From Rhodocollybia butyracea (taxonomy: Eukaryota; Basidiomycota; Agaricomycetes; Agaricales; Omphalotaceae), in the NCBI GenBank assembly GCA_015501585.1, contig JADNRY010000238.1:1-64000 (forward strand): a stretch of 64,000 nucleotides of DNA, read 5' to 3'. Shown here piece by piece: positions 2,965-61,288 of the stretch. The translations under genes and the position numbers were made by a program. Below the pieces are notes generated by a model, which ran no database searches, was not told where the DNA came from, and saw only the letters and a program-made list of their open reading frames with translations. Position 1 is the stretch's first letter; each line of letters opens with the position of its first letter.

Positions 2965-3936
2965 GAGTATGCCATTCTCCGCCCAGTACTTGTCTATGGC
3001 CCCATTGTTCAACTCTCTGCCGCCATCTATGTGTATTGTCCTCAGTTTCTTCCCCGTCTGCTTCTCCGCCATTGTGCAGTACTCGTGTAAGCATTTCACG
3101 CCCATCTCTTTGCATTTATTATTCAGGTAGAACAGTACTCGGAAGGAGGATTTTCCGTCTGTGCAGAGTAAGAGGTAGCTGCAAACTCCACGTGTCTGCA
3201 TTCTCGCAGGTCTGAATAGGTCTACATGCACACACTGGAGTACTTCACTCTCATGCATGAGTATGGTTGTCTCTTTGCTGTTCCATATAAGCAATCCTCG
3301 CACATACCAGTTGCCTCGCTTTTGGTGATATTCAGTCCATTGACGAGGTTCCGGTTGGCCACACGTAGTATCCATTGGATCAGTGCTACGTGCCCTAGTC
3401 TCCTGTGCCAGGTGAGTATATTGGTTGGCCTATCTCTCTTGCACAAGCAATTGACATCTGTTTTCCCTGACTCCAGTATCTCCACCTCATACATCTTTGC
3501 TTTGCCATACCATGTATCACTCCCTCCCCTGTGGGGGACTTCACAATCATTGCGCCGTCTCCCCAGGTGCCTCTCATTCTTTTACAATCGAGGGTTGACA
3601 GTGATATGAGGTTGTGGGCAAACAATGGCGTGTGCTTTGCGCCCTGGAGCTTCACTATTCTTTCGTCTCCATCTACACGCATGACAAATTGTACCGTCCC
3701 TACTCCAAGTATCTGGAATTTCCCCGTGTCGCCAGATATGGCACTATTACCACCTTGGCCATGTACCTCAGTATATTCGATGAAGTCTGATTTATGCACC
3801 CAACAGTGCTCTGATGTGCCCGAGTCAAGAAAAGTCTGAGTTACGGGAGCAGGAGGCAAGTATAGGGATGTTGTTCCCTTGCATATGGCACAGTCTTTGA
3901 GGTCAACAGTCGCATAGCTAAGTACGTCTTTATCTA
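2965..3936 (-). pseudogene. Ty1/Copia pol fragment: protease, GAG-pre-integrase, integrase N-part
   Basis: Reading leftward from 3936, the protease active-site loop FLDSGTSEHCWV comes first, then a pre-integrase zinc-binding segment (WHRRLGHVALIQW with a later CEDC), then the integrase core with HVDLFRP (first Asp) and IHIDGGRE (second Asp). The frame stops being coding at 2964, just before the segment that should carry the catalytic Glu, because another element is inserted there; reverse transcriptase and RNase H are absent from the window. Frames shift around 3395-3494 and 3222-3375, so the copy is decayed. It continues gag to the right across the MITE at 3937-4309. Copia polyproteins copy and integrate the retrotransposon. 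Family call is firm; function is lost. Confidence 0.85.
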
Positions 3937-4309
3937 CATCAGGAAAAGCCGTTTTTGCCTAGGTGACCCCAGAGTGGCCTAAAGCAAACTAGGTGACCTA
4001 TGAATCCTATGGCATCCTAGGAATTTGGGCTCGTCCCTTGCCAATCAAGGCTCTTGAGGATTCCCTAGGGTATCCTAGGCAAACCCAGGGCAAGCCTAGG
4101 TTTGCCCAGGTTTGCCCAGGTGTTCCCCAGGTGTTCCCCAGGAGCACCTGGGCAAACCTGGGCAAACCTAGGCTTGCCTAGGGAATCCTCAAGAGCCTTG
4201 ACTGGCAAGGGATGAGCCCAAATTCATAGGATGCCATAGGATTCATAGGTCACCTAGTTTGCTTTAGGCCACTCTGGGGTCACCTAGGCAAAAACGGCTT
4301 TTCCTGATG
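3937..4309. mobile_element. Palindromic MITE, copy 1 (373 bp, TSD TA)
   Basis: The element is an almost perfect inverted repeat with arms of about 185 bp, starting CATCAGGAAAAGCCG and ending CGGCTTTTCCTGATG. It is flanked by TA on both sides (3935-3936 and 4310-4311). Removing element plus one TA joins the Copia gag-pol frame on the minus strand without a stop. No coding capacity. Three other copies lie at 35916, 42395 and 58793. Confidence 0.93.
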
Positions 4310-5268
4310 TACATCCTGGCTTTCCTCCTTTCGCTGACCTGTAGCCTTCAGAATGGGATGATATGGCTCAAGGAGTCCATGGCATTTACTGACAGGACAT
4401 AATAGGTTGCCATGGGCATGCTAGCATTGGGTTTGGTGTCCTCTGTTGTAACAACTTTTACACTTGGCCCCATTTTTCCTCTGTTCGCTTGTCCCTGTTT
4501 TGGCTTGTCCCTCCATGCCACCACCCTTTGCCCAGCATTTCCTAGCCATGTGGCAAGTGAATGCAGGTCTGTCTCTGGTGCGCTGTTGGTACGGGCCTTG
4601 ACTTTCTTGTTCTCTTGTTCCTCTGCCAGTCTATCCTCTTCCTTCTGGAGCCAGAGGGTACAAAGGTACATGAATGCATCTGCGCTTGATGTTCCTGAGA
4701 CTGTGCACATGTCTCGCTTCCAATTGCTGGGCATGGATGAGATGAGGATGAGACAGAACTGTGGGTCAGGGATACTTCCTCCGAGGTCATGTACCTTTTT
4801 CAGGAGGTTTTGCATTTTCTTTTTGTGGTCCTCCATGGTCTGTTTGGACAGGTTGAATCTCTGGGAGCGAAGCGCAGTATCAGCAAGGTGAATGTGCTGC
4901 TCATCTTTCTTTTTGAATTGTTTAATGAGATTTTTCCAGATTTCAGATGCTCTCTTTGTCTTGTCGATTCCCAGTCCTGTAGGGTCAACCGCGTTTCATA
5001 CAATGGCTCCGGCAACTAGCCTATCACGGGCTTCCCACTCCTCATATTGTGGGACTGGACTGAACAGTGGTGTCTGCTGTGATATGTAGATTGGGCCCAG
5101 GTAGGTAACCATAGGGGTTGGTCTAGTGATAGTCCCATCGAGGTAGCCTGCCAAGCCTTTCGATTGAATAGCAAATAAGATTTCCCTTTTAAAAGGTCTC
5201 CAGTTTTCTTTGCCAACAAGCTGTTTCTCATCTGGGAGTCTCGGTATATTCAGTAGATTTCCTGACAT
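4310..5268 (-). pseudogene. Ty1/Copia Gag (UBN2-type)
   Basis: Starts at the ATG at 5268 (MSGNLLNIPRL...). The N-terminal part has the Copia Gag pattern of a conserved Trp (ENWRPFKREI) followed by a helical region (ASEIWKNLIKQFKKKDEQHI, DLGGSIPDPQF) typical of UBN2/DUF4219 Gag domains. A frame change near 5000 splits it into 4996-5268 and 4348-4836. Gag forms the virus-like particle that packages the element RNA in the cytoplasm. The 3' part runs toward the MITE at 4309, and beyond it the protease frame follows. The LTR boundary lies about 30 bp upstream at 5299. Confidence 0.8.
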
Positions 5269-5405: not shown

Positions 5406-8400
5406 TGGCGGTGGGCATTCATTATGAAAAAACCGGCGGGCGCTTAGGATTTTCCCACCGCTAAACCACGTTCTCACTACAGCTCTTGCTGTCCTAAAGT
5501 TAATCTCGCAGTCCCTTCGCGAGAATATTCTGTAAGGTATATCTAAAATCATAATAAATATGTATCGCTCTTTATTTCAAGCAGAAATCTTTAGTAAACT
5601 GGTTTTGACAAATACGTCGATTTGAATGCAAGCAAAACTGTGTCTAATTATGTACCGAATTTTTTCGGAGAAGAATCAGCTTGAAATAAGGAATCATCAA
5701 GATGTTCGTCAACTTTTTGCCTACTTACTTCTGTGATGAACATGATATACAGCTGAATTAAGAAACCGAAAATTTGACAAAGCAAGATGAGCGTGATTAC
5801 TTATTCCCACGCTAGGCTGTTGCCTTTCACCAACTACGATGCATCGATTCGCGTCGCTGGACCGCGTTCTAGCTTACTATCTTGCTCTTATACCCTTTAT
5901 TACGCCCTATACCATGCCTGCCCGGAAATCTGCAGCCAAAATTGCTCAACTGAAGGCTCTACATGCTTCTAGATCTAAAAATGAACCTGACGAAAATACA
6001 ACTCCTCCCGTTCTTTTTGAAGCCACTAGTCCGTCCGCATCGACGCGTTCTAAGACAAAGAAAAGGGCCGATATTGGATTGCTGAAATCTGTGCTTGACG
6101 AGAAGGTTCTAGAGATAGCTGAACTGAAGGAAAAGGTCTCAAAGGCAGTATTGGATACACAGACCCGGGAATCAAAAATACTCTCACTTTCTGAACGAAA
6201 TCTCACTCTTCTGGCTTCACTGGATGATCTGAAGGCCGAAAACTCCACTCTTGTATCCGATATAGCCCGCCATTGCTTTGCCCATGGTAGAACTTTGAAG
6301 GAATTACACAGTTGTAAAGTCGAGTCAAAGAAGGAGAAGATTGCACTTCAAAGAAAAGCCAGAAGGGAAAGGAAGAAGTACGAGAAGGAAATACTGGGAT
6401 TGCATGTCATTATTGATCTTGCTGAGCCCAAAAACACCCAGCTCCAACTCAAAGTAGTTGAACTCAAGGAATCACTTTCTTCCTCGACCGCTCTTACCTC
6501 CACTCTTTGTCAACAAGTTTCTTCCCTTCAAAAAGAAATCTATGCTCTTCGGAAACAGGTACAACGTGCAAAAAGCTCTCTTGCATCCACTCGTATGAAG
6601 TTAGAGACAGTCGCTGTATGGAAACCTACCAACAAAGGCATCTTTACAGCCTCTGCCGTAAACTCTATCGTCAGCTTAAATGCACGGGATGCCGGAATGT
6701 CGATCTTGCAATTCGATCTTGTGGCGAGGCATTTGGTATTCTTGTCAAGCGAGTAATGAGTTGTCATACTGGGGCAAGATGTGTCAAGGAAGGTGGCATC
6801 TATGGACTGATACAGCTTGGAAGAGAGATCACAAACACCTTGGCTTTTGGAGAAGGCAGTGATGGGACAAACAGTTAGTGGTATTACTCAAGAGTCTCGC
6901 TCTATAACTCTCTCTGCACCCACCTATGAACTGGGTTGATGATTCGGATCCTTCAACTTGGAAGACAGCGACGCGATTCGCTGAAGTTGCCCCTGCTCTT
7001 GATCATACTGCTCAACGACAATTTGAGGGATCAATTGAGCTAGGCATGAAGATCGCAAATGCGTACTCTGAAAGTCCACTGGCAAAACGTGATGGCCAGA
7101 CCATGGAACCTGACGATTACTTTCAGAAACAGGTCTATCAGCACAAGGACCATGCTGCTGACGGCAAGAAGACTTTCGACTTACGAAGGAGAAGAAGGAT
7201 CATATCTTGAACCGCGACCTTGCAATGGAGAAGATGAAATTAATGTCTGCCACTGATATCATGAGTGAGGTGATAAAAATTACTGACGCCGACATTGTCA
7301 AAGCTGCTGGGAAACCGTTCAAGGCTATTGATGAACTGTAAGTACTTTAATTTTTATCTGGTTAGTTTTACATACTCACTCTGAGTAGCTCTGAATCTCA
7401 GCGCAGCCAAATCTCGCTCGATCTCCTGGAACAGCACATTGGAAAGGAAGTGTTTGAATTACTCCCAGATAATGAAGCAAGTCTTCTCTGTCTTTTTCTT
7501 CTGCACACAAGTGTTTAAACTCCTTTTGCTATGGTGTTGTTGAGATGCAGGAAACATGGAAACGGGAAAAACTCGAAGGTCATGTGATTTGGCCAACAAA
7601 GCCACAGAGGTTGCAATACAGATAGCCAAGAATAATACCAACCCGAAGCCCTCGCAAAATGTGTCGCATCCTGTTCACGTGGCGGGGTTAAACTTACTGA
7701 ACTTGCTGGAGCACTCCTTCGTCATAAGAACCATGAGACCGGGTACCAGGATAAACATCGAATGTTTATGCAAGCTTGGAAGCAAGACATGTATGATATG
7801 CCTGCGTCCGAGGCATCTAAATGTTTCCCCGATGTTTCCAACACACGCTATAACTCTCATTCCTATGCCGCCGCAGAACTCATAGTCCTTTGTGATGACT
7901 ACCAGGATCTCATTGAGGAAATTTGCGACGGAAAGACCAAGATGGGTCCCAATCATCTTGAGAGAAATGCTCTCAAAGGCCTCCAGTGCATCAAAACACT
8001 CTGTGAGCTTGCTGCTATGGCCGTTGATGGTCTTGTGTTATCATGGCCATACATGGGTCTAATTCGATCTGCTCCTAATGGTCAAAAGTTTGTTGATGCT
8101 CTCAGCCCCAAAATGGTTGCACTTCACCAGCGGATTCCTGCTTTCTGTGAAAATCTCGCACTTCATCCAGAAAAACTCTTCGATCCAGAGACTCCACAGA
8201 GCGAATTGACTTTAGATGGAAAACCGTTCATTGATCAGACTATTGTTCCAACACTGAAGACACTATCATCGGAACTTCCCCATCTTAACCTCATGATCTC
8301 TGCAATGTTTCGTGGCGAGGCATATGGGTGGACACTTTTCACTCCCGAGTATGTTGATGATCCGACTGATCCTGTTTGCATTGCTTCACTTACTCCAGAA

Positions 8401-9615
8401 ATGCGTGCATGTCTCGGCCGTATTCCATGACAAACAATGCCAATGAAGGACCTCTAGGTTCAACCCGGGTATATCTTCACTCTAACCCCAGCAGCAACTC
8501 TTTCATGTTTGCAGCTCAGGCTCGTGCAACTCGTAATGGGACAGAGAAATTCATTGTAAAGCACACTACATTCGAGGACCAGCTTCACGTTATGCGACAA
8601 GCCCGGGAGCAGGATGCGAGTGGAGCTGTGAAGAAGTTTCAACATGAGTATCTCAAGGTACAAAAGAAGCGCGCAGAAGATGCTCAAGAAAAGCAAGCCA
8701 AACTGACACAGAAACAAGCCGATGAGACAGCTCGCTTAGATGCAATTGGACTTGTGTTGGACAGTGACCAGATTGTCAAAATGAATGTCAAGGAGCTCAT
8801 GGACCAGTTCCGCATCTACAAGAATGTTCGGAACGATCCAGTCCTTGCAAAAGTCACACAGAAGTCTGTTAGTCTCAAGCCAATTTTGCAGTCTGCTGTC
8901 CTTGCAGCTGCAACTCGAGTGTGAGTTCTTTTATTTCTCTTTTTATTTCTCTTCCGTTCGTTCTGGATTAATCTATGTTTAGATTAATCGCGGATCCTAC
9001 TGCTGGTTCACTGTCCAGCATCTCGACAAATGATGTGAATCAAGCCCCACGGGGGTCAATGGAAGCGATGATAGAAAGATTGCAAAATTCGATGGATAAT
9101 GACGTTGATATGGACAATATGGACAACATGGACTATGATATGGACTACAATATTGATGGAATGGAAATGGCCTAGCTGTATTCTAGTGCTAGCAGGAAAA
9201 TTCTGCTACATATATCACTTTACCATGCTCGTGCTCAACTCGTGCTTGATGCTTTGTATGCTTTCACCTAGATAGACCTCGCTATAGAATAAGCACAGTA
9301 TGATACTCGATTCATATTCCTTACCCGAACCTGTTTTGTGTTCATTTTCACGTTGTTATGGCCCTTGCAAGTGTTCAATCCCCTTGACCTACCAAAACAG
9401 CAGACATAGCAATGTATTGACACTAACTACTATTCTAAATTCACGAAACTGAATATCCAACTAGACAAATCATTTTCGAAAATATTGTCTACCAAGAGTT
9501 AAGTGATCTATGACCTTGTTCATGTGGTACAAGGGGGAACACGGGAAACCGCCATGTGGCTGGTTTCCCACGATTAGGCGCCCGCCGTTTTTCTCACAGG
9601 CCTTGCCCACCGCCA
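5406..9615 (+). mobile_element. 4.2-kb TIR transposon of an unnamed family
   Basis: The ends are TGGCGGTGGGCA at 5406 and TGCCCACCGCCA at 9615. A second inverted block, CGGCGGGCGC, follows about 25 bp inside each end. Both sides are flanked by CTGTAAA (5399-5405 and 9616-9622), which I read as a 7-bp target-site duplication. The host sequence is the Copia 5' LTR. The only gene inside is the plus-strand gene at 5914-9175, making that protein the candidate transposase. Confidence 0.8.
5914..9175 (+). pseudogene. Candidate transposase of the 4.2-kb TIR element; broken, multi-exon
   Basis: The start is the ATG at 5914 (MPARKSAAKIAQLKAL). Residues about 60-250 are strongly heptad-like and charged, a long coiled coil. 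Near 6657 a one-base deletion shifts the frame, and homologous text resumes as RKLYRQLKCTGC and later EGGIYGLIQLGREI and SDGTN. The centre (7762-8430) contains FPDVSNTRYNSHSYAAAELI, and 8410-8460 contains TNDANEGPLGS after another shift. Introns seem to lie at 7338-7401 and 8921-8982. The C-terminus is an Asp/Met-rich tail (DMDNMDNMDYDMDY). From memory this resembles a large, repeated mushroom protein family without a clear name. The conserved NTRY and NDANEG blocks may carry a DDE-type core, but I cannot prove that. Several frameshifts make this copy inactive. Confidence 0.72.
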
Positions 9616-21076: not shown

Positions 21077-23340
21077 ACTATGGAAGCTCGGAGAGCCGGT
21101 CCTTCAAGGAAGGTAGCTCAGAGCGACGCGGTCAATTGCTCATTAGTAAAGATAGGTCTGAAGTTGTGTGGATTAACTTGCGTGTTATCCCCCTCTTTTG
21201 GGTAGATGTCCCAACATCTAGTGATGGAGTCCAGTTTCTCACTGAGCTTTCCGGGCTGGAACCGAATGATCATGTTGAAAGTGTGAAGGTATTTGGACCA
21301 CCGAACCTGTCGCCAAGTTAGTACTTTAGTAGTAGAAAAATACTTGAGGTTCTTATGATCGGTAACAACATTGATTGGGTCTCCGGAGCCTTCGAGGTAG
21401 TGCCGCCAGGCTTTAAAAGCCTCGAAAATGGCTAAGAGCTCTTTGTCATGAGTATTGTAGTTGAGCTCGGTGGCCTGGAAGGTCCGAGAGAGGAAAGCGA
21501 TTGGATGGATTTCTCCATCTGAGAGTCAGATTGAGAGGATAGCCGCTAAGGCATAGTCGGAAGCATTGGTTTCCACAATAAGTGGACAATTTGGTTCCCA
21601 ATGTGTGAGAATGGGTGCATGTGTGAAGGCGTACTTGAGTTTTTTGAAGGAATCCTGACACGCCAAAGACCAGAGCCATGTGACGCCCTTCCGGGTAAGC
21701 CGAGTCATTGGTACAATGATGTCACTATAATTATAAATAAAATGTCGGTAGAAATTAGCGAAACCAAGAAAAGATTGGATGTCTTTGACTTTACGAGGAA
21801 CCGGCCAGTCAACAATAGCTTTAACCTTATCTTCGGCCATGGTCAATCCTGCCGGAGAGAGAATGTAACCAAGATATTCGACCGTATCAACTGACCAGAA
21901 ACACTTTGCAGGATTGAGAAAAAGGCCGTTAGCACGGAGCCGCCAAAGGACTTCGCGAACATGTTCCAAGTGCTGTTCTGGATTGTTGGAATAGATGAGG
22001 ATGTTGTCCAGGTAAACTATGATGCAGACATTGAGCATGTCCGAGAATATGTTGTTGATGAACCTTTGAAAAGCCGCGGGAGCATTAGTAAGACCAAAGG
22101 GCATAACTAACCATTCATAGGAACCCCATCAGGTCCAAAAGGTAGTTTTCCATTTGTCACCATTGGCAATTCGGATGAGATGATAGGTGTGGGCCAGGTC
22201 GAGTTTGGTGTAGATTTTAGCTCTTTTTGGAGCATCCAAAAGGTCCGAGATTAGAGGCAGCGGGTAGCAATCCTTCTTGGTAATCTTGTTTTATCCTCGG
22301 AAGTCCACACAAAGCCGAAGTTTACCATCCTTCTTTGGTACGAAGAGGACGGGAGCACCATGCGGAGAGGAAGAGGGTCAAATGACACCGGTAGCGAGTT
22401 GCTTATCCAAGAAATCGCAAAGAGCCTACTGCTCTGTCGGAGAGAGAGGGTAAAGGCGACCGAGCGGGGGCTCAGCACCTTCCACCAAACCAATTTTGAG
22501 GTCAAAAGAATGATGTTTGGGAAGAACCTCAGACGCAACTTCATCAAAAACGTCGGCAAAGTCAAGGTAGTCTGCAGGGATCAGAAGTGCCTCGGAAGAA
22601 GCACTCCTGGCCAAAGGACCAGATGCTGCATAGTGTGCCGACACTTTGGGGTCAATAACCCGGAGAAGAGTCGGTTCCCTACATGAATCTTGACAAGCCC
22701 TATGGAAGGCGGCGGCGCCGACTAATGCGATATCGACTTCAGGAGTCTCCAAACGCAAAGCCATTTGCGCAACCGAAGGGTAGGAATAGATTGGTTCGAA
22801 AGGAAACCTGTCCGATAGAGGACAAGGTTGGCGAGAGCAAGTTTGAGTCGGTGGGAAAGGTGCCGGCCGAATCGGGATAGTAGGTGATTCCGAGGAGGAA
22901 ACCGGTGCTTTCGGTCCTAATGCGGATCCGAAAAGCAAAGACGTCTGAGTGGAAACAGAGTGCTTGGTGTTACAGAAAGTAATGGTTCTGGTGACCCAGT
23001 CAATCAACGGATTGTAGCGGGACAAGAAACTGTATCCTAAAACAGCTTTACAAGATGAGTCCAGAGAAGTGACATAAAATGCCAGAGGTAGCAGCTCGCC
23101 GGACGGAAACCGAACTTCCAAAGTTGCAACTTTGGAAATTGGTTTCAGAGAAAGAGAACCATCGAAGAGTGGCAGATTGATCGGCGGTATTGAAGAGGTT
23201 GGAATAGAGTTTAAATTGACATAACGGGAATCAAGCAAACAATTGGTAGAACCCGAGTCTATGAGAGTAATAAACTTTAAAAGAGCAGAGGATTTGTCGG
23301 AATCCTTGGGAAGAGGGAATTCAGTAGATAAAGAAATCAC
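21077..23340 (-). pseudogene. Gypsy protease, reverse transcriptase and RNase H
   Basis: Protease: LIDSGSTNCLLD near the start of the 22426-23340 frame, with AVLGYSFLSRYNPLIDW downstream. Reverse transcriptase: [50 protein letters not shown], then YLDNILIYS, where the second catalytic Asp of the usual YxDD is Asn (codon 22003-22005). RNase H follows with LIVETNASDYALAAIL (normally TDAS). Stops are at 22378-22380, 22291-22293, 22129-22131 and 21526-21528. Three of the four are TGA where the family normally has Arg. The enzyme would copy RNA into cDNA; this copy cannot. Confidence 0.92.
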
Positions 23341-35910: not shown

Positions 35911-35915
35911 TGTAA

Positions 35916-36221
35916 CATCAGGAAAAGCTGTTTTGCTAGGTGACCCCAGAGTGGCCTAAAGCAAACTAGGTGACCTATGAATCCTATGGCATCCTAGGAA
36001 TTTGGGCTCGTCCCTTGCCAATCAAGGCTCTTGAGGATTCCCTAGGTATCCTAGGCAAACCCAGGGCAAGCCTAGGTCTGCCCAGGTTTGCCTAGAGAAT
36101 CCTCAAGAGCCTTGACTGGCAAGGGACGAGCCCAAAATCCTAGGATGTCATAGGATTCATAGGTCACCTAGTTTGCTTTAGGCCACTCTGGGTCACCTAG
36201 GCAAAAACAGCTTTCCTGATG
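35916..36221. mobile_element. Palindromic MITE, copy 2 (306 bp, TSD AA)
   Basis: Same termini as copy 1 (CATCAGGAAAAGC ... GCTTTCCTGATG), shorter because central arm sequence is lost. Flanked by AA at 35914-35915 and 36222-36223. Confidence 0.9.
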
Positions 36222-41976: not shown

Positions 41977-43097
41977 TAGGGTTTGAAGGTCTAATTCAAT
42001 GGACTGCAGAAAACTGATGAATTGCACTGAACTGAACCGCAAAATGAACTGATGATAGATGGACCGGTCCATGATTTAAACCTGGTCCAGTTCATGGTTC
42101 ATCAAAATCTCAGAAAAAAAGTGAACCACAAAGAATCAGTTTAAACCGGTCTAAACCGGTACAGCCACATAGCAAAAATAATTTAGATAAATGAGTATAT
42201 TTTCTCCAATTTTGATCAATAAAATTAATATTTTCTAATGGTCTCAAGCAATAAGCTTATACAAAACTGGAAAGACTACTCATAACCTATTGAACAGTAC
42301 CATGCAACAAGTCTGAGAGCCTGACATGATGCAATACACTATCCATGGTCTGTTTTAACAGATGACCAATGACTGCCAAACCTGGAAAGCATTTCATCAG
42401 GAAAAGCCGTTTTTGCCTAGGTGACCCCAGAATGGCCTAAAGCAAACTAGGTGACCTATGAATCCTATGGCATCCTAGGAATTTGGGCTCGTCCCTTGCC
42501 AGTCAAGGCTCTTGAGGATTCCCTAGGGTATCCTAGGCAAACCCAGGGCAAGCCTAGGTTTGCCCAGGTTTGCCCAGGTGTTCCCCAGGTGTTCCCCAGG
42601 AGCACCTGGGCAAACCTGGGCAAACCTAGGCTTGCCTAGGGAATCCTCAAGAGCCTTGACTGGCAAGGGACGAGCCCAAATTCCTAGGATGCCATAGGAT
42701 TCATAGGTCACCTAGTTTGCTTTAGGTCACTCTGGGTTCACCTAGGCAAAAACGGCTTTTCCTGATGTTCTGCATGGTAAAGAGCAGTGTAAGGCAGCCT
42801 AGAGCATATATTGAATGTTTTATATTGATTTATAGTAGTTTCTTACATGGTCTCACTTGTTACATATCTGAATATCTTTCATGCATGTGCAGTTTAAATC
42901 AGTTTAAACCGGTATGCACCAGTTTAAATTTGCACTGATTTAAACTGCATGAACCAGGATGAATTGGACCAGTGGACCAGTGCAATCAGTGCAGGTCCAT
43001 GGTTCATACAGATTTAGGTTTTTTATGGACTGGTCCAATTCATGATTCATTGAATTTTTGGTAAATAAACTGAATTGGATTGGACCTTCAAACCCTA
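41977..43097. mobile_element. hAT-type inverted-repeat element (TSD AGTGATTT) holding a MITE
   Basis: Ends TAGGGTTTGAAGGTC and GACCTTCAAACCCTA are flanked by the 8-bp AGTGATTT (41969-41976 and 43098-43105). Inverted homology is extensive (CATGAATTGGACCAG-like arms, AAACCGGTTTAAACC-like motifs). TAGGG ends and 8-bp duplications are typical of hAT. Without the nested MITE at 42395-42767 it is about 0.75 kb and non-coding. The empty target is seen at 11914-11962. Confidence 0.85.
42395..42767. mobile_element. Palindromic MITE, copy 3 (373 bp, TSD TT)
   Basis: Full-length copy with the same termini as copy 1, flanked by TT (42393-42394, 42768-42769). It is nested inside the hAT-type element, so it inserted later. 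Confidence 0.93.
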
Positions 43098-55600: not shown

Positions 55601-56869
55601 CAGCAGCGTTAAGGATGAGACTCTGCACCACCGCTGTGCCGCTTTTCCCAGCATTCAAGAATGCGCGGCGTTTCGCCTTTCTTTCGCCACCCTCAAATTC
55701 GAGCGATGATATGAGCCCTTTGTTTCTCTCGAGCTCTTCTCATAAAGAAGAATTCTCCCAGCGGAGAGCAGAATATCGGCTTCGTTCTGCGTTTTCCATC
55801 TGGGGTGCTCTGGGTTGCCGTACGTATGAGGACCTGTGATGGAGGGGGACAGAATCGGACAAGAGGACGGGCTGGAGACAGCAGAAGCCATGAAAGACAT
55901 TTAAGCTTGGGACATTTTCTTCGATTGCTCAGACACGAGGTCATTTTCACCGGTGGAAATTAGGGGCTTGAAGCCATAGCTGGTCGGTTATAGGGATCTC
56001 CTCAAGCTACAGAATGATGAGCCGGCATCTGATATAAACAAACAAAATATAGAACATACGCAGCAAAATATAGAATACACCGCAGGATCATCGGAAGCCA
56101 ACAAGTCGCTATCAGCTACATTTCTTCTTCTCATATAAGAGATAAGAACATCGGCAGCTGAAAGAAAGTTGAAAGAAAGCTGACGCGGCGAACGGAGACG
56201 AGACGATGAATGTTCCGTTCATAAAGGCAGGCTCTGACTCTGAGGTGAGCGCTAAAATGCATGATCTGATGACTCAGAGGGGCGTGTTGCAGCTGCTACG
56301 GCGCATGCAGCTTCAAGTTACTTCAACCTCAACAAGTCTGTCAGCACGTTCCACGAGGACTTCCTCAATGTTCTCTTTGCTATGTGTGCCATATAAATCA
56401 GCGGAAAATTCGACTTCACTCGCGGGGGCCGTAGTGGCCGAACGACCCAGGTTCTCCCCTCGGCCTTCGTCACTCATGGAAACACCCCCATAGCTGAGGA
56501 CAAGGTGCGCTCCTCCATCGTGTTCTTCATGTTGTCCGGTTTAGCTAGGTGGTTTCAAAACGGCTACATGTCTGATAAAGAGTTCAACGTTCAAAGCGCG
56601 CGCATCGCCAGAGCAGCTTAAAGCATGGCTCGACTGCAGGTCAAAGCTGTGGCAGACAGGCATGGAGCTCTTGCAGCATGACGATGAGATGCAGCCAGCA
56701 CAAACGCTACCTCAGCTACTGCCGTATGTTCTAATCTATACCTAAAATTAAAATTGCAGTGCTCATGTTATGACTCGATCAATTGTCTCGTCCAAACCTT
56801 CACAGTACGTAACTCAGCAGTAAAAATGATAAGAGAAATTAATGAGATTATAGAGCAAGCCTTTCCGTT
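52675..56869. other. Repeat-derived DNA without a confident gene
   Basis: GTCGTTGTCTTGCACACTTC recurs at 52970 and 53095, and GTTAAGCTTATACG recurs at 53048 and 53116. GTTGTTGCACTC plus GTGTTCCTGGG recurs at 53485 and 54133. 54220-54345 is an inverted copy of 15585-15710. At 56206-56640 plus-strand frames (FHEDFLNVLFAMCAI, VFFMLSGLARWFQNGY) vaguely resemble a Gag capsid. I would not call any of these as genes. Confidence 0.4.
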
Positions 56870-56954
56870 TGTTGAAACCGCTAGGCAAAAAATATATACT
56901 CAAACAACTAGGCTCAAGTAAAGTTAGTAACTAGTTTGTAATACGAAACTCACA

Positions 56955-57272
56955 GAAGTTATTATTTGGAGATAGCTCGACAAATAATAATATGATTACC
57001 CTTGGAGATAGCTCAACAAGCAGTAATATGAACCAGAACTAGTACTCGGAGATGGCTCAACAAGTAGTAGTGAGTGTGGTGTCTAGTACTCGGAGATAGC
57101 TCAACAAGTAATAGGAAGTTGCAACTCGGAGATAGCTCAACAAGTGGCAATTAAAGAAGTATTCACTAGGAGATAGCTCAACAGGTGAATGTTAGTGGAT
57201 ACAACTTGGAGTTAGCTCAACAAGATGTATAAATGTGTATTGTAGCTTGGAGATAGCTCAACAAGATACAAT
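56955..57272 (-). repeat. Array of eight hairpins with a conserved loop and variable stems
   Basis: The 15-bp core GGAGATAGCTCAACA recurs eight times at 34-62 bp spacing (near 56968, 57003, 57048, 57091, 57127, 57168, 57207, 57248). Around each core the flanks are complementary to each other but unlike those of the other units, for example TTATTATTTG/CAAATAATAA, ATTGTAGCTTG/CAAGATACAAT, TTGCAACT/AGTGGCAA. The core itself can pair GAG with CTC. The stems therefore covary while the loop is fixed. Confidence 0.85.
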
Positions 57273-57370
57273 GAGTTGGTCTGGTGATTCAAACAAGTGA
57301 TAACAGCAAACAAGTGGGGGTTTGGATTTAAGAAAATAATACGTCTCCTATACATTGGTAAATCTAGCCT

Positions 57371-57380
57371 CCTTATATAC
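57371..57380 (-). promoter_or_regulatory. TATA box
   Basis: Minus-strand GTATATAAGG, about 100 bp before the hairpin array and after the 27-bp repeats. If used, the hairpins would lie in the 5' part of the transcript. Confidence 0.45.
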
Positions 57381-57404
57381 TGTTGAGTATGTATTATTTA
57401 GGAA

Positions 57405-57582
57405 ATGCTGCAGAATGACATCATAACTGTGGAGCACTGGAATGATGTCATAACTGCGGAGCACTGGAATGATATCATAACTGTGGAGCTGGAATGATGT
57501 CATAACTGCGGAGCAGTAAGATGACATCATAACTGTGGAGCATCAGAACTGCGGAGTAGTAGAATGATGTCATGGTGTAACA
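57405..57582. repeat. 27-bp direct repeats with TGATGTCA cores, about six copies
   Basis: Unit GAATGATGTCATAACTGCGG with variants ATGACATCAT and ATGATATCAT. The TGAYRTCA core resembles bZIP/ATF-type sites. Position upstream of the TATA box fits an LTR enhancer. Confidence 0.65.
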
Positions 57583-57796
57583 TGCAGTGACTGGTGTTCA
57601 ATCATTCTAGTGGAACCGAAGTTGATTAACAGTATGTTCATGTGTGCAACATTATGCCAAATAATGTAGAGAAAATGAGTAATGAACGTAAAATGTATAT
57701 GATAAGTAGAAATCTTAATGATAGTAGTAGTAGTTGGTTAATAATAATAGAAAAAGATGTGTATATGCTTATAGTTTGGGTATGGGTCATAACAGC

Positions 57797-58216
57797 TCAT
57801 CCAATGAACCGCCGTGTAGCCCGCTCATCATAATAGAGATGCGTTACGCCATTCTTCTTTATGTACTGCCAGGTTGATTCCGCGCCTTTGGTAGTGGCTG
57901 CAAACCTCACTGTAGGCGCCAAAATTGTAACATTGTAGAATGGCAAAAAAGCCTGATTGTCATTCCGAGCCACTACGAATATAATAAGTTGGAGATGAGA
58001 ATGAGTGATTAGAAGGGGGCCGTTAGATGAACTCTTCCACATTGGAGGGCTGAAGCCTGAGCTGTCCCACACAGCAACTGCTGCTATGACAGCACAGCAC
58101 TGAGGAATGACTCTGTCATAAGCATTACTGACATGAGTGGAAGCAAAAGTCTCACAAGACTCAAAGCAGCAAAAAGCTATGCATATTTGCGTCTCGTGGA
58201 TCAATAAATAAGGCAA
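57797..58216 (-). CDS. Uncharacterised 139-residue frame
   Basis: I do not recognise it. It begins MPYLLIHETQICIAFCCFES and ends WQYIKKNGVTHLYYDERATR. Possible intron signals occur inside, so the true product may differ. It lies downstream of the Plavaka C-terminus on the same strand and may belong to that element or to flank. Confidence 0.25.
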   Translation of the reverse strand: MPYLLIHETQICIAFCCFESCETFASTHVSNAYDRVIPQCCAVIAAVAVWDSSGFSPPMWKSSSNGPLLITHSHLQLIIFVVARNDNQAFLPFYNVTILAPTVRFAATTKGAESTWQYIKKNGVTHLYYDERATRRFIG

Positions 58217-58792: not shown

Positions 58793-59165
58793 CATCAGGA
58801 AAAGCCGTTTTTGCCTAGGTGACCCCAGAGTGGCCTAAAGCAAACTAGGTGACCTATGAATCCTATGGCATCCTAAGAATTTGGGCTCGTCCCTTGCCAG
58901 TCAAGGCTCTTGAGGATTCCCTAGGCAAGCCTAGGTTTGCCCAGGTTTGCCCAGGTGCTCCTGGGAAACACCTGGGGAACACCTGGGCAAACCTGGGCAA
59001 ACCTAGGCTTGCCCTGGGTTTGCCTAGGATACCCTAGGGAATCCTCAAGAGCCTTGATTGGCAAGGGACGAGCCCAAATTCCTAGGATGCCATAGGATTC
59101 ATAGGTCACCTAGTTTGCTTTAGGCCATTCTGGGGTCACCTAGGCAAAAATGGCTTTTCCTGATG
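58793..59165. mobile_element. Palindromic MITE, copy 4 (373 bp, TSD CA)
   Basis: Same termini as the other copies, reversed central asymmetry relative to copies 1 and 3, flanked by CA (58791-58792, 59166-59167). It interrupts the Plavaka coding sequence near its 3' end. Confidence 0.93.
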
Positions 59166-61288
59166 CACTGTATCATATCTAGGTCCTGACTGAGAGGTTC
59201 TCAAGTTGGTGCCAGACGGGATGGCTTTTACTATTTCTTTTGGCACATCTGAGTCATCATTGAACAGATTAACTGGTGTAAATTTGAAATGGTGCCAAAC
59301 GTCAAGCAAAGTAAAAGGAAGACATCCATTTGCTATAGCTTCTTTTTTTGTAGCCTGTTCTTCTTTCGGAAGATGAGAGTTTATATAGAGCTTCAGTGCT
59401 GGTATAAAACCAGGCACATTATGAGAATTAACAATTGCGTTAAGACTTTTTCTTTTCTCATGCGGATGTTTAGCTATTCAGATGTTGGTCTGCAGCAGTT
59501 CGGACCCAGATTGGGTTTCAACTTTTCTAGCAGCATCAGCAGTGGGAGCTCTTTTAACCTGAGTCTGTCTCTTTTTGCCAAGTTTGGCAACATCAAGGAT
59601 AAGAGCAGTAGTATCCTCTTCCGACTTGTCTTCTTCAGTATCTTCATCATGTGCCATAGTAGTCGAATCAATCCAGTTTCTATAAAACTCATATGACATC
59701 CTTTTTTCTTGTCTTGAAAGCCATTGGGTCATCTGAGGGAAGTGATCATGTTTATTGGTTGCATCCCAGGCTTCTTTTGCCATATCTATGTGCAAACGCT
59801 CAAATGCTTCTGTGTTGTAGTTATCAGTTGTGCCAAGCCACTTGATGGAATCTACATAATGAACCAGAGAGTGAAATTTGGGAATGTTCAAGTGATCTCG
59901 AACACCTTCCGTGACAAAGTAGGCCTTGTTTTTGTGCCATGTTTGTAGCTCTGCATCCATATAGTCTAGAGTCTCCTGGTCATGTGAAGGGTACTGAGCA
60001 AGATGAATGAAATTCAACAAAGCTTTGCAAGCCGCGATGCCTTTTGCATCAACTTTTCCTGTTAGAGATGCGAGGAGAATATGTGCTATGTGCTTATGCT
60101 CAGTCTCAGTTATCTGGCTGAAATCTGCTATCCCTTTTTTGAAATGACGGACACCACATGTAGGCGGTAGCACTTGAAATCGCTCATCAAGTTCATTCAC
60201 ACCTACAATTTCTTGTACCCATTTATGCAGATGCACAAAGACTCCTTGGTAGCATTGGTGAAGAATATCAGGTGTAATGCACCAATGTATGTCTGTTAGA
60301 GGAAATCCTGCCCAAAAAGGTTCAAATCCCCCAGCAACATTGTGCTCCTTCATAGCAGATGTATGTGCATGACTTTTTGCCCTTGATACAGTAGCAGAAG
60401 ACTGATTAGCTACAGCGTCCTTATAAGCTTTATTGATTATTTTTTGAGTCCATGACTGTGTCCATAGATCTCCAGTTACTGCATGGGACAGCTCTTGTGC
60501 TTTTTTTTTGCACTTTGGACAGGTGCCATACTTGGTGCATGTTACAAGACACTGCTCAGGATAGTCTGCCACATATATAGAAAGCAGGGATAGACCATCC
60601 TCACATCACCATCACCTCCAACCATTTCTATTCCCCCTGTTTGCGGATTTCCAGCGGATTTTAATGGTGCCAATACATGAGCCATAGAACAATGAAAAAT
60701 CTCATACGCTCTTAATTTGGAATCTTTTTTTGTGATGCATTTTTTATCAGGCTTATCAACAGAGAGATAAGCAATAAGCACACATGCCCGAGCACTGGGC
60801 TTTCGCCTCAATGCCTTGGGCAAATTTCCAATGGTGAGATAGACAGGATATGCAGATTTGTTCCCTGAGAACCTGGTTAGGTTAGTTTTATCAGAGGCTA
60901 TAATCACAGGGCAGACTGTTCCTCCTTCTGGAATTGCATGCTAGTTTGAGATAAGTTCAAGTAGGATGTCCCATGCTAAGTTCAATTTATCTTAGTAGTA
61001 ATGCTGGCAGTACATACCTGTACTGCGTTCCAGAAACCTGCAGTCCACATTTCGGAGAAGATACGGTTATCTTCAGTCTTTGCTTCCCCTCCACGAAAAA
61101 GCTTTCCTGGCCTATACACCAAGTTTTCGGCAAAGGCGGGATCACCCCACAGTGCTTTGATGGCTTCTACAGGGTTCCGATGATGCACAGTAAACTGTTC
61201 ATCAGGTTTATCGCAGAATGAGAATTGCTTAGTGTACCAATTGCCGCATCTCTCAGGAATTTCATCAATGCACTTCAGCATACCTTTA
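59166..61288 (-). pseudogene. Plavaka transposase, central catalytic part
   Basis: From 61288 leftward: CIDEIPERCGNWYTKQFSF, NPVEAIKALWGDPAFAENLV and FSEMWTAGFWNAVQ; an intron at 60941-61017; then GGTVCPVIIASDKTNLTRFS, NKSAYPVYLTIGNLPKALRR and FHCSMAHVLAPLKSAG. A shift at about 60571-60582 (TATATA run) breaks the frame before DYPEQCLVTCTKYGTCPKC. The next block has WAGFPLTDIHWCITPDILHQ, GVRHFKKGIADFSQITETEH, IPKFHSLVHYVDSIKWLG and NYNTEAFERLHIDMAKEAWD. A TGA at 59478-59480 interrupts in frame, and coding continues in the same frame to the MITE (NSHNVPGFIPALKLYINSHL). These motifs are typical of Plavaka transposases, DDE enzymes widespread in mushrooms. Confidence 0.92.

Follow-up and report, generated by a model that had tools for sequence, protein, structure and literature searches.

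Dispersed packaging signals of RNA viruses present a conserved loop on variable stems, and to our knowledge the leaders of the retrotransposons Tf1 and Tj1 hold no iterated hairpin array. According to the papers cited, the 5' end of Tj1 and Tf1 RNA is complementary to the PBS (PMC4600332), psi sites consist of multiple stem-loops located in the 5' UTR (PMC5454406), and in an enterovirus many RNA sites per genome contact the coat protein (PMC7793301). Here we describe a hairpin array in a stretch of 64,000 nt from Rhodocollybia butyracea (the window) and compare it with these systems. As in Tf1/Tf2 and Tj1, the 5' region of the RNA is complementary to the PBS here too, and the element carries a Tf2-1-like SH3 domain and an integrase chromodomain; set against Tf1 and Tj1, its self-primer lies 500-700 nt from the PBS. 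Like the packaging and dimerisation regions of retroviruses and Ty1 (psi; TIPIRT in Ty1), the 5' leader has several stem-loops beside the PBS, as seen by prediction and covariation. The available portion of PMC5454406 does not describe the retroviral and Ty1 packaging regions as a single apex repeated in tandem, on stems that change and in a number that varies, and for the present element binding and packaging are putative. The packaging signals of RNA viruses are scattered over the genome, whereas the array described here runs head-to-tail in the leader. A literature search on hairpin arrays in LTR leaders showed nothing of the kind in the titles and abstract openings that it listed.

The eight-unit array sits inside the solo LTR of a chromodomain Ty3/gypsy (chromovirus) retrotransposon. 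The repeat at 56766-57794 is identified as a solo LTR because it has TGTTATGAC at its start and GTCATAACA at its end, with GCTCA on either side. The main features are as follows.

56766..57794, minus strand: solo LTR, 1,029 bp, matching the LTRs of the copy L021 (BLAST against fetched copies)
56761..56765, no strand: target-site duplication GCTCA, first side
57795..57799, no strand: target-site duplication GCTCA, second side
57413..57542, minus strand: 27-bp tandem repeats in U3, upstream of the TATA box
57372..57379, minus strand: TATA box TATATAAG
57335..57346, minus strand: self-primer AGACGTATTATT, presumed RNA 5' end, complement of the PBS AATAATACGTCT in full copies
56766..57346, minus strand: leader part within the LTR, 581 nt, no sense ATG
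56957..57273, minus strand: array of eight hairpin units

L021 is a complete copy with LTRs at 1385-2636 and 6859-8110 (1,252 bp, 100% identical) and the duplication ACAGG. The LTR pair of L022 (1,170 bp) is 99.8% identical, and its flanks show no perfect target duplication (CTTGA/CTTAC). The TG...CA LTR ends and 5-bp target duplication by which Ty3/gypsy LTRs are recognised are present both in L021 and in the window's solo LTR. With 1,934 exact matches (886 + 1,048) in the 95.6-Mb genome, against 3 for the reversed pattern, the 14-base core is a multicopy feature. The 27-bp repeats of U3 contain GTCATAAC, which is also present at the LTR tips, as well as a TGATGTCA-like palindrome that we take to be reminiscent of bZIP sites; the repeat tract is longer in L021 than in the window LTR.

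The ORFs of L021 run opposite to the array as first written and one of them contains Retrotrans_gag (E 1.5e-6), which makes the window's minus strand the coding one. The internal regions of L021 (4.2 kb) and L022 (3.5 kb) hold gag-like ORFs and offer no space for pol, and both of these pol-less copies still carry the array. As the L022 ORF matched no Pfam family, any Gag would serve L022 in trans. RT matches lie ~4.74 kb past the LTR/PBS junction in four copies (C591, C1185, C1012 and C481). The C591 ORF (L039:203-3838, 1,211 aa) contains RT, RNase H, an integrase zinc domain, a Tf2-1-like SH3 and a chromodomain, which confirms the pol order RT - RNase H - integrase. Its integrase core (rve) scores 30.7 bits, slightly below the Pfam cut-off of 32.6, and the H2C2 zinc domain is well above; the chromodomain (PF00385, E 3.8e-12) occupies residues 1137-1185, at the C-terminus of the integrase. 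The element is a chromovirus. Database relatives of gag amount to one protein of Lentinula raphanica, with a local alignment covering 1% of the query, and among the 120 pol relatives listed L. edodes stands at 58%. An RT search also found sister families at 76-77% identity to the window family (C1149, C1038, C441 and C521).

Other elements are found nearby. An ORF with a Plavaka transposase domain (E 4.7e-29; presumably a basidiomycete-type DNA transposon) lies on the minus strand at window 59478-60572, and the decayed RT of a related chromovirus (54% identical, 3 stops) on the same strand at 21217-22344. A MITE-like element of ~0.3-0.4 kb has four copies in the window (3931-4310, 35915-36221, 42395-42768 and ~58793-59165) and further matches in L024, L030, L031, L034 and L036; its inverted ends span at least ~105 bp, where the query ended. 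L029 contains a long tandem array at 6362-9271 with a period of ~103 bp.

The units of the array, numbered in the sense direction, are listed below.

57238..57273, minus strand: sense unit 1
57197..57232, minus strand: sense unit 2, core GAGCTAACTC
57158..57193, minus strand: sense unit 3
57117..57152, minus strand: sense unit 4
57081..57116, minus strand: sense unit 5
57037..57072, minus strand: sense unit 6
56993..57028, minus strand: sense unit 7, weak in the fixed register, needs a bulge
56957..56992, minus strand: sense unit 8, 8/8 arm pairs

An earlier, sequence-only reading had seen one core recurring eight times, and this is what we find: eight 15-bp cores at 56968-57263, five exact and three with one mismatch (allowing up to 3 mismatches the window holds 10 cores in all; shuffles mean 2.2, maximum 7). 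Its claim that the arms are complementary within a unit also stands. In a fixed register 52 of the 64 arm positions are Watson-Crick paired, against a mean of 32.5 and a maximum of 40 when arms were swapped between units (2000 swaps) and a mean of 20.1 and a maximum of 33 when right arms were shuffled (5000 shuffles). The figure of 8 to 11 pairs per unit proved too high, as the stems score 7, 7, 6, 7, 7, 7, 3 and 8 of 8, most of them having a single inner mismatch. The arms are not completely different between units either: sense units 5 and 6 are near copies, and duplication of units proceeds in 44-nt steps.

Over the eight window units 88.5% of the cells pair; sliding the partner by 1-3 columns lowers this to 34-49%. 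Double-sided cells number 13 (slid controls 1-5), in line with the compensatory change proposed for the stems. When the array is folded, the minus strand beats its own shuffles (z-score -3.9, plus strand -2.3), whereas the raw folding energy is lower for the plus strand (-80 against -70.9 kcal/mol). The apical 'loop' can pair internally (GAG/CUC); the apical motif reads UG-UU-GAG-CUAU-CUC-C. Between window positions 56700 and 57860, Rfam covariance models matched nothing at E values up to 1. A kissing contact between the apex UCUCC and a GGAGA at the start of the RNA was considered and rejected, because GTAGACG or TTAGACG stands at that place in most of the copies that were read.

Across the genome, arrays have 7-12 units (20 arrays, one a 2-unit fragment), and 12 further arrays have 8-10. 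The idea that genome copies of the core might have arms no better paired than controls is not borne out: 642 of 767 cells (83.7%) are paired over all 59 distinct units of the 20 arrays, and in the 50 of these units that were aligned 85.7% of 650 cells pair against 37-50% when slid. Core positions A6, G7, C8, A10 and T13 are identical in 59/59 distinct units, and variation is mainly in the bulge, the tetraloop and C15 to U (a G-U pair). The top G-C pair has P >=0.5 in 20 of the 26 units of the folded leaders of L021, L022 and L036 and P <0.5 in the other 6, two of them at 0.08.

Within the window family, just one of 29 distinct pair changes is double-sided, so the copies are too alike for a covariation test. 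Since, in addition, G-U results from 12 of the changes and A-C from almost as many (9), covariation alone does not set the strand. It is the comparisons of unit with unit and of family with family that carry the case. In sense units 5 and 6 an inner mismatch remains a mismatch through 15 differences, against 0 and 3 in the paired neighbours; only the U-A/U-G position adjoining the core varies more (16 vs 15). Chimeric units, with arms from two different units, were seen in L041, L045, L046, L027, L030, L034 and L036. They apparently arose via recombination through the core and are natural mispaired mutants. One with mismatched arms is common to L030 and L034, from which it follows that single bad units are tolerated.

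The window solo LTR itself has no PBS. In the window the first T of TATATAAG lies 33 nt ahead of AGACGTATTATT, and the spacing is 31-33 nt where both were found. The self-primer with its downstream neighbour occurs at 247 places genome-wide (reversed control 0), and its complement TAATAATACGTCTC stands right behind the 5' LTR of full copies. Allowing up to 2 mismatches, the LTR/PBS junction was found at 67 places (control 0), of which 50 are exact, 5 carry one mismatch and 12 carry two. Eleven of these last 12 are a single variant that is not a 5' junction; because nine of the 11 sit 2.9 or 7.2-7.5 kb downstream of another junction, ~56 5' junctions are counted. The variant junction, GTCATAAAATAATAATACATCTC, lies at its 11 places in the 3' internal region (for instance C472:43063-43085), and its letters fit the variant self-primer AGATGTATTATT of L030 and L045. 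A closer variant of the LTR-end/PBS junction is present in L022 (sense ~6273, ~600 bp ahead of the 3' LTR).

Self-primer and PBS form a 12-nt perfect complement, that is, the RNA 5' region is complementary to the PBS as in self-primed elements. In L036 a G to A change in the self-primer is accompanied by C to T in the PBS (AGACATATTATT with AATAATATGTCT), and C516 combines L036's PBS change with the common self-primer, giving a G-U pair. The letters differ yet match in the sister families: AGACTTCTTATT in C1038, C441 and C521, and again other letters in C567 (TAGTCCTAATATT) and C513 (AGTTTAAATAT). In the 5' stretches of C1060 and C507 no self-primer/PBS pair was found and in that of C1149 no clean pair; an LTR search in the first stretches of C1149 and C507 found none. 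Predicted folding places the self-primer on the PBS in six of seven leaders, with inner pairs at P 0.93-1.0. The longer stretch of C513 folded without this pairing, whereas its first 300 nt folded with it. On the Tf1/Tj1 model, the RNA would start at or near AGACGUAUUAUU and the element would be self-primed; the TATA spacing and the ATG-free stretch beginning at the self-primer agree with a transcript start there. The proposal that a minus-strand transcript carries a structured RNA array at its 5' end thus gains support, with a start site that is presumed from this model. What the sequence-only reading lacked is that the array lies in the RNA leader of a multicopy LTR retrotransposon, presumably self-primed.

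The array takes up 317 of the 581 nt from the self-primer to the LTR end. No sense ATG falls in these 581 nt, as compared with 10 on the antisense strand (mean of 1,000 shuffles 8.7, none at zero), and the U3 ahead holds 15. In L021 a scan of the 704 nt ahead of the gag start codon likewise found none. A 560-nt scan of 17 loci found 12 to be ATG-free, the others having 1 (L028 and L034), 4 (L036), 5 (L030) and 8 (L035, which is not a true leader start). Among sister leaders 9/12 are ATG-free, and C337, C432 and C750 have 1, 3 and 6, the C750 stretch extending beyond the LTR. A 5' leader that is scanned would be expected to be free of ATGs, and this feature sets the strand better than covariation does.

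It might be argued that the array acts at the DNA level, as repeated transcription-factor or insulator sites (the gypsy insulator is a series of repeated binding sites for a protein on DNA), with arms that are by-products or form cruciforms. The conserved 15-bp core, its many copies and the nearby promoter would suit such sites, and the G-U and A-C counts given above do not settle the strand. Nonetheless, a linear DNA site needs no unit-specific arms paired within the unit. The stretch comes after the TATA box and, in the manner of a scanned leader, lacks ATGs; of the two strands it is sense that reaches the better z-score, and U-G pairs occur in sense in the sister hairpins. We regard a DNA-level role as very improbable.

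Self-primer-to-junction distances in 15 copies are 500, 503, 573, 581, 615, 617 (three), 620, 660-665 (five) and 704 nt, taken from the copies that could be paired among the listed first places of both searches, with C516 (617 nt) left out. Many of them differ by 44-nt steps, the unit length. This variation in unit number and distance, the position of the array between self-primer and PBS, and a fold that closes the clasp with most hairpins inside would all agree with a purely architectural role, in which local hairpins compact a long leader and insulate it, helping the RNA 5' end to meet the PBS, with no dedicated protein. Such a role leaves the near-invariant apex on variable stems (59/59 distinct units) unexplained, and C513 and C567 manage with self-primer-to-PBS leaders of ~280 and ~340 nt that have no ladder of the window type. 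We consider it unlikely as the whole explanation, if clearly less so than sites on DNA.

Sister leaders bear hairpins topped by TG..CA (e.g. attactg AGCCTTTC cagtaat), which look akin to the window core (TGAGC...TCCA) and are taken by eye as homologous to it, mostly in ladders of 3-6 related hairpins. An initial hairpin count, in which overlaps were removed greedily, exceeded the largest shuffle in none of the leaders and was superseded by a TG..CA descriptor. This descriptor has sense/antisense matches of 7/8 in C1149 (one of the 7 off the ladder), 3/4 in C1038, 4/3 in C441 and 3/4 in C521, the antisense score being equal or higher in three of the four. The sense count was reached by 0, 6, 1 and 15 of 1,000 shuffles, respectively (means ~0.5), figures that are descriptive only because the descriptor was shaped on these same leaders. 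It found none in C567 (75% RT identity), one in C513 and 2-6 matches, some off the ladder, in eight further sister leaders; in the window it recovers 6/8 units and one match outside the array.

In an alignment of four sister leaders 158/164 cells pair (96.3%; slid 31-47%), the structure being drawn on C1038, to which C521 is almost the same sequence (two of the four rows). Both-sided change occurs in three of five sister hairpins, and one pair occurs as U-G, C-G and U-A, which again speaks for compensatory change; by eye, C432 has another C-G to U-A change. Out of 500 shuffles of this alignment, 24 have at least as many changed pairs and 263 at least as many pair types; kinship among the sequences inflates shuffle controls. 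The hairpins persist between families with diverged linkers.

These observations also bear on a mutational origin of the array, by tandem duplication and template switching in quasi-palindromes during reverse transcription and with no function. Duplication of units in 44-nt steps and their recombination via the core do occur, as such an artefact would have it. The sister changes, on the other hand, are single compensated pairs (U-G, C-G, U-A) and not whole-arm swaps, the inner mismatch of units 5 and 6 persists while highly variable next to its paired neighbours, and the hairpins survive where linkers have diverged. An artefact without function seems to us as improbable as the DNA-level role. 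A hairpin-copying mechanism or capture of the loop by new stems, put forward earlier, is superfluous, since tandem duplication, recombination through the core and ordinary substitution suffice. Hairpin copying was rejected: sister leaders show no whole-arm conversion.

Summarizing, we interpret the array, with a probability of roughly 0.6, as a tandemly expanded, structurally constrained RNA domain in the leader of a self-primed chromovirus, clasped by self-primer and PBS and likely a protein platform; the scaffold, DNA-site and mutational readings are rated lower. The array would form the body of the RNA leader, whose 5' end would fold back on the PBS ~500-700 nt downstream, with 7-12 tandem hairpins between the clasp strands that share one apical motif on individual stems. 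These hairpins may have been born by tandem duplication of a hairpin that the sisters carry in fewer, looser copies, and selection would keep the stems paired and the apex constant. That structure is constrained at the RNA level in the leader is highly probable, and we infer selection on RNA structure. A constant apex on changing stems suits a repeated protein site, and distinct stems would stop neighbouring units from cross-pairing. The array could thereby be a multivalent platform that shows the same apex many times to one protein, with the element's Gag and its CCHC knuckle as the best candidate, so that genomic RNA would be recognised and packaged with the primer complex already in place. 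A protein-binding platform is slightly favoured over its absence, and a role for Gag and packaging specifically is a tentative proposal that falls somewhat short of even odds; packaging and the identity of the binding protein are speculative. Slightly more doubtful still is the broader suggestion that a fungal chromovirus lineage evolved a repeat-array packaging and priming domain, with one apex head to tail on distinct stems, a self-primer:PBS clasp and a valency tuned by 44-nt gain and loss.

In our judgement the packaging signals of Ty3/gypsy elements, above all of self-primed ones, are poorly defined. The variation in unit number, the chimeric units and the sister families with the same plan constitute a ready mutational series. 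With this series one could ask what copy number of an RNA motif is required by a capsid protein, and by what means a self-primed RNA holds its 5' end on a distant PBS. The locus also illustrates that a striking array in raw sequence can be a multicopy LTR feature and not a host gene.
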